Virus record (IMG/VR): IMGVR_UViG_3300024054_000530
Span: 1-31,797 of that record
Source: a virus
DNA length: 31,797 nt
Reading direction: 5' to 3' (one strand)
The notes beneath the pieces were generated by a model, which did no database searches, was not told the DNA's origin, and saw only the letters and a program-made list of their open reading frames with translations. Shown piece after piece: positions 232 to 26,756 of the stretch (positions within the stretch are counted from its first letter, which is position 1; each line of letters begins with the position of its first letter). The translations under genes were made by a program, and so were the position numbers.

Positions 232-1077
232 ATGAGCGCACAGACCATCGCCATTTCACAGATCGACGCCTCTAACCGGATGCGCCCGGTCGATCCGCTC
301 GTCGTCGAAGCCTATGCGGCGATCGCCGAGCAGCGCGTCAGCGAGGGCCTGTCGCCGCTTATTCAGCCGATCATCGTGCGGCCGCAGGGGGTTGGCTATA
401 GGCTGACGGCCGGCGCGCATCGACTCGCCGTTCTGCTGGCGATCGGCCGCAAAGAAGCGGCGGTGGGCGACGACGTTATCATCCGCGCCGAAAGCGACGA
501 CGCGGCGCGTGACACGGAGATTTTCGAGAATCTCGCCGACGCCGGACTAACGGCCCTCGACCGCGCGATCTTCCTCTATGAGGCAAAACATCGTTTCGAC
601 GCCAAACGCGGCGAGACGCGCGGGCGCAAACGCAAAGACATTGAATTTAAAGAGCAAGAAAAAATGGCGGAATCCGCCATTATTTCTTCGGAGCGCTTCA
701 CCAAGGATGCGGCGAGACGGATAGGCCTCGCCGAAGTTGTCGTCAAAGAAGCCGTTCGCATCGCCAAAGCTCTCAATCCTCTGGCCATCAAGCAGCTTCG
801 CGGCACCGCTATCGAAGACAATCAGAACGAGCTCAAACAGCTCGCGGAACTCGACGGCGCGAACCAGTGCAAGGCCGTCGCGGCGATCAAGGGCGGCGAG
901 GTCAAGACCGTCGCCCAGGCGCGCGTCGCGATCGGCGTCGACAAGCCAAAAACCGACGATGCGCAAGCGCGCATCTACGCCGATCTGCTCGATCGTTGGT
1001 CGAAAGCCAGCAACAAGACTAAGCGCCAATTCATGGCCGACGCCGGTCTCGTCTACGCCGAGGGAGGCAAAGCGTGA
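232..1077 (+). CDS. ParB/Srx-domain DNA-binding protein
   Basis: 281 residues. The N-terminal half carries the ParB-type fold: a strand region near 6-20, a Q-P-I-I-V-R strand near 45-50, the turn LTAGAHRLAVLLAIG (58-72, in the place of the ParB nucleotide-binding box) and ENLADAGLTALDRA (99-112), matching the ENL...L...A signature that follows it in ParB/RepB/Spo0J proteins. Residues 155-205 look like the HTH that reads parS in true ParB proteins. No ParA is next to it. GAGAAG lies 5 nt before the ATG. Being first in the early operon, ahead of the transposase, it may be a regulator, a site-specific DNA organiser or a CTP-switch protein; the fold is much surer than the role. A long palindrome lies within this gene (see 656-688). 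Confidence 0.8.
   Translation: MSAQTIAISQIDASNRMRPVDPLVVEAYAAIAEQRVSEGLSPLIQPIIVRPQGVGYRLTAGAHRLAVLLAIGRKEAAVGDDVIIRAESDDAARDTEIFENLADAGLTALDRAIFLYEAKHRFDAKRGETRGRKRKDIEFKEQEKMAESAIISSERFTKDAARRIGLAEVVVKEAVRIAKALNPLAIKQLRGTAIEDNQNELKQLAELDGANQCKAVAAIKGGEVKTVAQARVAIGVDKPKTDDAQARIYADLLDRWSKASNKTKRQFMADAGLVYAEGGKA
656..688. promoter_or_regulatory. 33-bp near-perfect palindrome inside the ParB-like gene
   Basis: The left arm AAGAAAAAATGGCGGA (656-671) and the right arm TCCGCCATTATTTCTT (673-688) are reverse complements with one mismatch in 16 positions, around a single central A at 672. The outer half is A/T-rich in otherwise GC-rich DNA. It encodes residues about 142-153 of the ParB-like protein. 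A dyad this long is unlikely by chance and resembles an operator or a ParB-type centromere site, but no known consensus (for example parS) fits. As RNA it would also form a 16-bp hairpin with almost no loop, which disfavours a purely RNA role. Confidence 0.55.
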
Positions 1078-1328
1078 GGCAGCCGGAAATCTCATATTTC
1101 CTGCCTGAAACGCGTCCGCACCATTCGCAGCGCGCGACGCTTGCCGAGCTGGACGGCCTGTCGATCAAAAATGTTCGACGCATGCCGCATCCCGTCGAAT
1201 TGAGAGATTGGGCTGACTCGAATTTCTACACCATAGACCTAGAGAACGATTGCTTCCGCCTCACGGACCGAGGGTGCGAGGCCGTTAAGTCGGCGCGCGA
1301 AAACTATTGCGCGGAGAGCGGCCGGTGA
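1074..1328 (+). CDS. Hypothetical protein between ParB-like gene and transposase
   Basis: 84 residues, starting with a GTG that overlaps the TGA of the upstream gene (GTGA) and preceded by GAGGGAGGC at good spacing. The C-terminal part (NDCFRLTDRGCEAVKSARENY) looks like the wing and last helix of a small winged-helix domain (LTDRG is a common turn in such proteins), and the first half has a short helical stretch (ATLAELDGLSIKNVRRM). No family is certain. It is translationally linked to both neighbours, so it belongs to the early transcription unit. A DNA-binding accessory to transposition or early regulation is a reasonable guess only. Confidence 0.6.
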   Translation: MRQPEISYFLPETRPHHSQRATLAELDGLSIKNVRRMPHPVELRDWADSNFYTIDLENDCFRLTDRGCEAVKSARENYCAESGR

Positions 1329-3439
1329 AGGACTGGCTCTCGGCGCAAGATTTGGCGGACTTGGCGCTGCCAGGGCTCCCGACGTCAAAGTCGGGATGGC
1401 ACAGATACGCCGAGCGTGAGGGCTGGCTGGAGCAAAAGGACAAGGTGCGCGTTCGTGAAGAGCGCGCCGGCGGGCTCGAATTCCATATCGATCTTCTGCC
1501 GCCAGCGACTCTCGCCGCCTATGTCGCCAAACATGTCGGCGCCGTTGACCTCGAAGAGGCGGACGCTGAAATCGCGGCGCGTGAAGAGGAGAAGCGCCAG
1601 CTCTCCCTCCCGGCCGTCGAGTCGCGCGACGCGCGTCTTGCGCTGCTCGCCGCCGCCGATCGGCTGGCGCGCGACGGCAATCTCTCGCGCACGACAGCCG
1701 ATCGGCTATTTGTCGCGCGCTACAACCTCGACAAGATCGGCGTGGAAGCCTGGGTGCGACAGGCGTGCCCGAAGATTTCAACGCGTTCGCTTTGGCGCTG
1801 GCGCAATCAGCGACTGACACAAGGAATTTCGCGGCTCGGCGTCGACAAGGGCGCCGCGCGTAGGGGTAAGGGTGCTCTCGAGTCCGGCGAGCAGGGAAAG
1901 GTAAGAGCGTTCCTGCTCGCCGCCATCGCCGCGCAGCCGCATCTATCGAGCGATCATCTCAAGAAGCTCGCCGAAAGGGAATTTCCTTTCGTCAAAGACG
2001 TCTCCACCCGCTCCTTTCAGCGGTTGCGCGCCAAAATCGAGCGCGAAGACCGAACGCTGCTCGCCAAGGTCACAAATCCCGACAGATTCAAGAGCCGCTA
2101 TCGTCTCACCGGCTCGAATTCGCATCCGGTTTCGCGGCTCAACGAGCTTTGGCAGATCGACGCATCGCCGGTCGACGCGCTCTGCGCCGACGGCCGCTAC
2201 AGCGTCTATCTTTGCGTCGACATCTTCTCGCGCCGGCTCGCCGTTTACGTCTCGAAAACGCCGCGCGCCGAGGCGGTGGCGCTGCTGATGCGCCGGGCCA
2301 TCCTCGCCTGGGGCGTTCCCGAGCGCGTGCACACCGACAATGGCTCGGATTTTGTCGCCAAGAGCACGCAGCGCCTCTTCGCCGCGCTCGGCATCGAGGT
2401 CGAGCTGTCGCGCCCCTTTCAGCCGCAGGAAAAGGGCCATGTCGAGCGCGCGGTGCGCACCTTCCAGCACGATCTCGCGCCGTTGCTGCCGGGTTTCGTC
2501 GGCCACAATGTCGCCGACCGCAAAATCATCGAAGAACGCCGCGCTTTCGCGCAGCGCCTGGGGCTCGATGACGCCGGCGCGTTCAAGGCGGAGCTGACGG
2601 GCGCCGAGCTGCAGGGGATCTGCGACGACTGGGCGACGGGACGCTACGCCAATCGGCCGCATAGCGGCTTGAAAGGCGCGACGCCCTTCGAAATGGCGAC
2701 CTCCTTCGCCGGCGCCGTGCGCCGCATCGACGATCTACGCGCGCTCGATCTACTGCTCGCGCCGATCGCCGGCGGCGACGGCACGCGCATCGTCACCAAG
2801 AAGGGCGTGCGCATCGATCACTCCTACTATCTCGCGCCCAACGTCATGCCAGAGACTCGGGTCTTCGTGCGCATGGACCCCGAGGACTTAGGAAGAGCCT
2901 GGCTCTTTTCCGACGACGGCGCGGAATTTTTGGGCGAAGCGATCTGTCCGGAGCTCGCTGGAATCGATCCCAAGGCGGCGGTCATGGAAGCGCGCGCGCA
3001 GCAAAAGCGGCTGCTCGAAGAGAGCGCCGTCCAGCTTCGCGCCGATATGCGCAAGATCAAGCCGCGCGACATGGTCGAGACGATCGTGCGCAACGCCGCG
3101 AAGGACGCCGGCAAGCTCGTCGAATTCCCCAAACGCGAAGAGAGCTACACGACCCCGGGCTTACGGGCCGCCGGCGAAGCTGTGGGAACGTCCACGGACA
3201 TGGCGCCGCTTCCGATTTCCAATCAATCAATCGATGCGAAAACGGAAGTCACGCCCGTCAAGAAACTCCCCGAGACGCCGCATCAACGCTTCCGACGAGC
3301 GCGCGAGCTCAAAGCGCGCCTTGCCAACAATGAGCGGATCGACATGGACGAGATGCGCTGGCTCGCCGTCTACGAGCAGAGCCACGAGTATCGCGGGTTC
3401 GCCGAGTTCGAAAGCAAATTTGAAAAAGCGTCGCGTTGA
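1325..3439 (+). CDS. A: Mu A-type DDE transposase
   Basis: 704 residues from the GTG that overlaps the previous stop; GGAGAG lies just upstream. A GTG at 1307 would add six residues, but the shorter form begins like MuA (VKDWLSAQDLADLALPGLPTS, the Mu end-binding winged helix). Residues ~100-250 hold further HTH domains. The catalytic core has WQID (D279), HTDNGSDF (D338) and KGHVERAVRTF (E374), i.e. all three metal-binding acids. A beta-barrel domain follows near 470-560, and the basic C-terminus should carry the part that contacts MuB. The enzyme nicks the phage ends and transfers them to target DNA for integration and replicative transposition. The D-to-E gap is 35 residues, shorter than the 55 of Mu itself. 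Confidence 0.97.
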   Translation: MKDWLSAQDLADLALPGLPTSKSGWHRYAEREGWLEQKDKVRVREERAGGLEFHIDLLPPATLAAYVAKHVGAVDLEEADAEIAAREEEKRQLSLPAVESRDARLALLAAADRLARDGNLSRTTADRLFVARYNLDKIGVEAWVRQACPKISTRSLWRWRNQRLTQGISRLGVDKGAARRGKGALESGEQGKVRAFLLAAIAAQPHLSSDHLKKLAEREFPFVKDVSTRSFQRLRAKIEREDRTLLAKVTNPDRFKSRYRLTGSNSHPVSRLNELWQIDASPVDALCADGRYSVYLCVDIFSRRLAVYVSKTPRAEAVALLMRRAILAWGVPERVHTDNGSDFVAKSTQRLFAALGIEVELSRPFQPQEKGHVERAVRTFQHDLAPLLPGFVGHNVADRKIIEERRAFAQRLGLDDAGAFKAELTGAELQGICDDWATGRYANRPHSGLKGATPFEMATSFAGAVRRIDDLRALDLLLAPIAGGDGTRIVTKKGVRIDHSYYLAPNVMPETRVFVRMDPEDLGRAWLFSDDGAEFLGEAICPELAGIDPKAAVMEARAQQKRLLEESAVQLRADMRKIKPRDMVETIVRNAAKDAGKLVEFPKREESYTTPGLRAAGEAVGTSTDMAPLPISNQSIDAKTEVTPVKKLPETPHQRFRRARELKARLANNERIDMDEMRWLAVYEQSHEYRGFAEFESKFEKASR

Positions 3440-3460
3440 GTGAAGGCGTTCAAAAATGAA

Positions 3461-3485
3461 GGGCCGCCGGTCCGAACGGCGGCCC
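3461..3485 (+). promoter_or_regulatory. Hairpin between transposase and ATPase genes
   Basis: GGGCCGCCG (3461-3469) and CGGCGGCCC (3477-3485) form a perfect 9-bp GC stem with the 7-nt loop GTCCGAA. There is no T-run after it, so a classical intrinsic terminator is unlikely; attenuation, mRNA processing or protection between A and B fits better. Its loop is almost the same as that of the hairpin at 24206-24234. Confidence 0.5.
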
Positions 3486-3510
3486 CTCGGGCAACATGAT
3501 CGAGGGCATT

Positions 3511-26495: not shown

Positions 26496-26756
26496 ATGCG
26501 TGGAAAACCTGTCGAGACGACGCCCGAGATGAAATGGTGGAAAGTCGTGAAGACGCGCGTCAACGGCCGCATTTATGGCGCGCGCCGCGCCGTGGACGAC
26601 GTCTTTAAGGCGCCCGAAAGCGCCATGACCTTCGACAAGCTCGCGGGCCTTGTCGAGGAAACCGTCGCTCCGGCAGTCGGCAATGTAAATCCGACTGCCG
26701 AAGCCCGACTGCCGAAGCCCGACAAAGCGGGCGCCGCGAAAGAAGCGAAAGGCTGA
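26496..26756 (+). CDS. Small tail-region protein with heptamer-encoded segment
   Basis: 86 residues, AAGGAGCATTCAAA before the ATG. ETTPEMKWWKVVKTRVNGRIYGARRAVDDVFKAPESAMTFDKLAGLVEE is the conserved-looking part; it resembles small proteins between V and W with no known role. From ~60 the protein becomes PTAEARLPKPDKAGA, coded by a phased heptamer array (26672-26723). The array lies near the 3' end, so the gene tolerates it. Its frame is kept since the unit is 7 nt and three units make 7 codons. Confidence 0.65.
   Translation: MRGKPVETTPEMKWWKVVKTRVNGRIYGARRAVDDVFKAPESAMTFDKLAGLVEETVAPAVGNVNPTAEARLPKPDKAGAAKEAKG
26672..26723. repeat. Heptamer array inside a tail-region gene
   Basis: In strict 7-nt phase: GGCAGTC, GGCAATG, TAAATCC, GACTGCC, GAAGCCC, GACTGCC, GAAGCCC and GAC. 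The unit GACTGCC is the reverse complement of GGCAGTC, so the array includes both orientations, as at 21323-21418. CGACTGCCGAAGCCCGAC occurs twice here (26692-26709 and 26706-26723) and, inverted, at 21334-21351. Confidence 0.8.

Follow-up and report, generated by a model that had tools for sequence, protein, structure and literature searches.

Several ParB sites are already known to lie inside or next to the gene of their own protein (PMC4442127, PMC9040568), and the recognition helix is known to contribute to the specificity of ParB and Noc (PMC7383237). In Bacillus subtilis, parS-359 is located inside the parB gene (PMC4442127), while the palindromic parS sites bound by RepB of repABC replicons are found within the operon itself or nearby, in some cases at the 5′ end of repB (PMC9040568). 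The base specificity of ParB and Noc is set in part by the recognition helix, with R173 reading G1 of parS (PMC7383237). The ParB-fold protein KorB of plasmid RK2 is described by its authors as a CTP sliding clamp with a silencing effect on promoters at distances of up to 1.5 kb (PMC11790492). For Caulobacter ParB, the E102A variant is clamp-locked, and the R103A or R104A variants lose most CTP binding (PMC8367383). For ParB-like genes located beside a transposase A gene, a role in integration has only been suggested, in one report (PMC5488378), and no tested function was found for them in the literature examined.

The locus considered here belongs to the latter type and lies in a 31.8-kb viral record (IMGVR_UViG_3300024054_000530), which was analysed over its full 31,797 nucleotides and is referred to below as the window. 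The features relevant to this study are the following.

232-1077, + strand: ParB-like gene, 281 aa (ParB_N-type domain, palindrome-encoding linker, HTH)
656-688, no strand: palindromic site; in the register with a 3-nt centre, left arm 656-670, centre 671-673, right arm 674-688
666/667/669, symmetric partners 678/677/675, no strand: half-site positions 5/4/2 (from recognition-helix covariation and out-of-sample prediction)
697-771, + strand: HTH, residues 156-180 (from AlphaFold secondary structure, alignment to the Spo0J/Noc HTH, and covariation)
733-771, + strand: recognition helix, residues 168-180 (from AlphaFold secondary structure and alignment to the Spo0J/Noc HTH)
736-738/745-747/748-750, + strand: predicted specificity residues V169/K172/E173 (from covariation)
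1325-3439, + strand: gene for Mu-type transposase A (rve, Mu-transpos_C, HTH_Tnp_Mu_1), consistently found downstream of the ParB-like gene across the family

The ORF at 232-1077 matches PHROG 3264 with E=1e-42, and its match to Pfam ParB_N is weak (21 bits, for a gathering score of 26.3). A profile search against solved structures returned Spo0J, ParB, Noc and KorB, and a fold search assigned the protein to the ParB/Noc/KorB-type fold with an E-value of about 1e-8. The protein is a member of the ParB superfamily, with ParB_N and HTH arranged as in Spo0J, Noc and KorB. The AlphaFold model (mean pLDDT of 87.7) has a confident N-terminal domain, a linker of low confidence at residues ~130-150, and HTH helices at 156-164 and 168-180. 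In the window, an 84-aa ORF (1074-1328) separates the ParB-like gene from transposase A, which is followed by a gene for a MuB/TniB-like ATPase; in the related loci L001, L002 and L004 the transposase comes directly after the ParB-like gene. A downstream transposase on the same strand was found for 107 of the 111 phage-type genes (defined below) having at least 1.5 kb of downstream sequence. In the complete relatives POA1180, Aussie and RcapMu, a repressor gene on the opposite strand comes first, followed by a ner-like gene or regulator, small genes, the ParB-like gene, one or two small genes, A and B. The left end of the window looks cut, since the expected c/ner region is absent; the record starts at the stop codon of a minus-strand 65-aa ORF (1-198). 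Two other repeats were observed in the window: an inverted repeat, GAAGGGCCGCCGGTC/GAACGGCGGCCCCTC, at 3458-3488 between transposase A (end 3439) and B (start 3496), and the 14-nt CCGACTGCCGAAGC, present twice at 26667-26718, each copy complementary to GCTCCGGCAGTCGG just upstream.

The palindrome reads AAGAAAAAATGGCGGA-A-TCCGCCATTATTTCTT and spans 33 bp, with two 16-nt arms, one central base and a single mismatch (662/682). It is encoded by codons 142-153 of the 281-codon ORF, that is, in the low-confidence linker between the N-terminal domain and the HTH. The initial annotation, which described a near-perfect 33-bp palindrome inside a ParB-like gene and no match to parS, was accurate on both counts, as the sequence differs from the canonical parS TGTTNCACGTGAAACA and bears no resemblance to it. 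This is the top near-perfect short-spaced dyad of the window, the runner-up having arms of 12-13 nt, and among 40 second-order Markov sequences as long as the window only one had arms of 16 nt. When synonymous codons were resampled with the protein kept fixed, 3 of 3000 window linkers scored as high as the real one.

Relatives were collected from viral contigs, annotated phages and prokaryote genomes, giving 168 distinct genes, of which 146 are phage-type and 22 serve as controls. In the latter the linker anchor residue is absent and the GERR motif is unbroken, for which reasons they were presumed, as a group, to be chromosomal-type ParB. A linker palindrome above the symmetric score threshold is present in 135 of the 146 phage-type genes, at the same place between ParB_N and HTH, and is weak or undetected in the other 11; none of the 22 control genes has one. 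For 122 of the 168 genes the strongest palindrome of the whole gene is the one in the linker, and no control is among them. The arms are 85-100% complementary over the ten positions next to the centre, a figure partly raised by picking the best dyad per linker, and less so farther out. Of the sites, 109 have a 3-nt centre and 21 a centre of 4 nt. The letters of the arms are often unrelated between groups of phage-type genes, and the centre base of the 3-nt sites falls in codon phase 2, 1 or 0 (75, 28 and 6 sites, respectively), so that the palindrome is not explained by protein coding. Indeed, synonymous resampling lowers the mean palindrome score of phage-type linkers from 10.0 to 5.5, whereas that of the control genes is 4.8 both before and after. 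Between close relatives, base changes are symmetric at homologous positions, and do not appear as fresh inserts. Tandem ParB-like genes or fragments, two or more per contig, were observed in L308 (G1060) and L309 (G1131). A pattern scan for the core GTCGCAAANTTTGCGAC returned 16 viral loci, and ParB-like linkers account for four of these. At five others (L036 4460, L037 6876, L038 2905, L041 3784 and L045 1664) there is no ParB-like gene in the stretch examined; at such loci the core is sometimes inside other ORFs, and these occurrences weigh against the cognate-site reading given below.

The presence of differing palindromes in genes coding for related DNA-binding domains raises the question of which residues go with which bases. 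Global correlations between palindrome similarity and domain similarity were weak and uninformative, and position-resolved covariation was therefore needed. Mutual information was computed between all alignable columns of the ParB-like proteins and the bases of the half-site, numbered outward from the centre. The top two pairs link residue 172 to position 5 and residue 173 to position 2. Residues 133 and 134, both paired with position 10, come next; they are uninformative because they lie at the edge of the segment encoding the palindrome. The informative pair after these links residue 169 to position 4. Residues 169, 172 and 173 are spaced i, i+3, i+4 and thus occupy one face of the recognition helix. 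The resulting residue-base tables are nearly deterministic. At residue 172, Gln and Glu go with C5 (50/52 and 11/11), Arg and Lys with G5 (40/41 and 6/6), and Tyr, Phe or Ala mostly with T5; at residue 173, Arg goes with C2 (77/81) and Leu with A2 (25/25); at residue 169, Arg goes with G4 (105/105), and Ser, Ala, Asp or Gln mostly with C4.

As the relatives are not independent, the genes were also compared as 64 disjoint closest pairs, with identity measured outside the linker and the HTH. Residue and base change jointly in these sister pairs, with p = 9e-9 for 172/5, 4e-6 for 169/4 and 1e-5 for 173/2, against a minimum of 1.3e-4 in 618 background tests on residues elsewhere. Pairs of genes sharing the same residues at 169, 172 and 173 differ at positions 4, 5 and 2 in 0.1, 3.5 and 6% of cases, compared with 20, 54 and 49% overall, while positions 3 and 6 stay free among them. 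No helix pair differing at exactly one residue over 165-176 was found. Prediction was then scored on genomes unused in the covariation, which provided 38 further loci, 31 with a linker palindrome, and only on loci less than 80% identical to the training genes. Base 5 was predicted correctly for 26 of 28 loci and base 2 for 22 of 27, where guessing the majority base gives 17 and 11. For base 4 the prediction is correct for 27 of 28; the majority guess gives 26, so this test adds little and the validation rests on bases 5 and 2. The half-site of the window reads G G C G G T A A at positions 1-8. Its G5 fits the code together with K172, a combination supported by many relatives, and the V169-G4 and E173-G2 combinations rest on few sequences of its own subgroup. 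Compared with L001, whose protein is 77% identical, two positions of the palindrome are altered on both arms, one of them being G5 (Lys172), which is C5 in L001 (Gln172).

Since the helix residues predict the half-site bases, and do so in sister pairs and out of sample, the palindrome at 656-688 is, with high confidence, predicted to be a parS-like cognate site for the ParB-like protein that its own gene encodes. It is through covariation and out-of-sample prediction that specific reading by the cognate HTH is indicated. A dimer would place one HTH on each half-site, where residues 169, 172 and 173 would read bases 4, 5 and 2. The site would thus sit within the DNA coding for the flexible linker between a nucleotide-binding-type domain and the HTH, so that reader and target would be inherited and exchanged together, and gene and target very probably evolve as one unit. 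The proposals that the palindrome is under selection and that it constrains the protein are supported. Free variation at synonymous sites among relatives had been suggested as a refutation, and it fails: the letters do vary, yet the two arms change jointly and track the recognition helix.

Other origins of the symmetry can be weighed against these data. The linkers all, or nearly all, fold into stems of 8-19 bp with loops of mostly 3 nt, the arms covary, and the window dyad scores as a terminator on both strands, as would be expected if symmetry were selected in the mRNA as a hairpin acting in translation pausing, as a terminator or as an RNA-protein site. A selected sense-strand RNA hairpin should however tolerate G-U mismatches, and the stem mismatches comprise 30 G-T and 25 A-C under a scoring that treats both alike. 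This lack of wobble bias argues for a site in duplex DNA; in addition, the U-tract is not conserved and the hairpin would leave unexplained why HTH residues predict the bases. The RNA reading is strongly contradicted by these sequence comparisons and appears very improbable, the palindrome being best regarded as a DNA dyad. An Rfam scan of the window gave no match, and an intrinsic terminator was rejected, as T-tracts are missing in many relatives. The occurrence of the common core GTCGCAAANTTTGCGAC in unrelated viral loci would suit a functionless selfish element inserted in the linker, as are the Rickettsia palindromic elements, but the symmetric changes at homologous positions in close relatives, with no new inserts, and their agreement with the recognition helix make this highly implausible. 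It had also been proposed that the site is the counterpart of the Mu internal enhancer, an element situated between c and ner to which both repressor and transposase bind. A position close to the left end of a Mu-like genome does agree with this. In relatives, however, the c-ner region lies upstream of the ParB-like gene that contains the site, and the site covaries with the HTH of the ParB-like protein (against which the covariation was computed), so that a counterpart of the enhancer, bound by the repressor and the transposase N-terminus, is hardly credible and the analogy was not supported.

The proposal of an autoregulatory or centromere-like site thus holds in kind, the amino acid-base covariation pointing to the ParB-like protein as the reader; the effect of binding is what we infer more weakly. 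In nine phage records, including the window, there is one site per genome, located in the ParB-like gene; no extra copy stands clearly above shuffled background in these nine genomes, and multiple parS-like copies were dropped as a candidate on that ground. No ParA (PF13614) match was found in the 31.8-kb record, which is possibly incomplete, or in the annotations of eight related phages. A classical ParABS partition role is therefore unlikely for the system of the window. Genome G175 (loci L292, L293 and L294) carries five ParB-like prophage genes, and the three sites located among them are all different, which is suggestive of co-resident prophages bearing at least three different sites within one genome.

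With the cognate-site reading retained, there is perhaps an even chance that a clamp of the ParB/KorB type is loaded upon binding onto the early region of the phage, where it would silence or organise the DNA surrounding the early operon and the transposase gene. The clamp part of this model is uncertain because the nucleotide pocket is altered: GERR has become mostly G[A/G]HR in the phage family (412-423 in the window, residues 61-64), a change at the E position which recalls clamp-locked E102A of Caulobacter ParB (PMC8367383). Within the CTP-binding motifs (GERR and ENxxR), phage-type proteins conserve R64, E99 and N100, and phage residue R103 is kept in 137 of 146, with D in the window. A serious rival, to which we would give rather less than even weight, is that the protein's own HTH binds the site purely as a local operator. 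The bound protein would then block the passage of RNA polymerase through the early operon and so feed back negatively on the expression of the ParB-like gene and the transposase, and neither a clamp nor spreading would be involved. The single site per phage genome, its place in a co-directional early operon ahead of transposase A, and the altered CTP motif agree with such a roadblock, whereas a classical operator would not usually lie in mid-gene, at a distance from a promoter, and the ParB/KorB fold suggests a clamp. There is also a less than even chance that the protein recognises only the single site in its own gene, reader and address diversifying and recombining as a unit. Each co-resident prophage would then have a private nucleation site, from which a ParB-type clamp would mark or silence the left end of that prophage.

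Many Mu-like phages have a ParB-like gene beside transposase A, and each such gene gains, from its sequence and a three-residue recognition code, a predicted DNA target, making binding, specificity swaps and effects on lysogeny or transposition directly testable. They also form a natural series of changes in protein-DNA specificity in which reader and site come together, extending previous work on ParB and Noc. In the open-licence literature we found no description of a phage family whose linkers encode private targets that change with the protein. Caulobacter ParB with parS and B. subtilis Noc with NBS share with the phage system the ParB_N and HTH fold and a palindromic site (PMC7383237), and a specificity set in part by the helix, as is predicted for the phage proteins. 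The specificity residues are however at other helix positions (169, 172 and 173), Caulobacter R173 and N178 aligning with phage residues 168 and 173, respectively. The phage sites also differ from parS in being about 23 bp or longer, with a centre of 3-4 nt, and in varying from phage to phage, and the system departs from ParABS in the lack of a detected ParA in the window and in the change from GERR to G[A/G]HR. RepB, a ParB-family protein of Alphaproteobacteria, resembles the phage protein in having palindromic sites in or near its own operon, but the repABC sites follow one consensus, GTTNNNNGCNNNNAAC, and serve partition with RepA, whereas each phage site has its own sequence and lies in the interdomain linker. 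KorB, likewise a ParB-fold protein of a mobile element, is by analogy the best mechanistic model, and the one we adopt as a working model, although it acts with KorA at promoters and the phage system has a single intragenic site.
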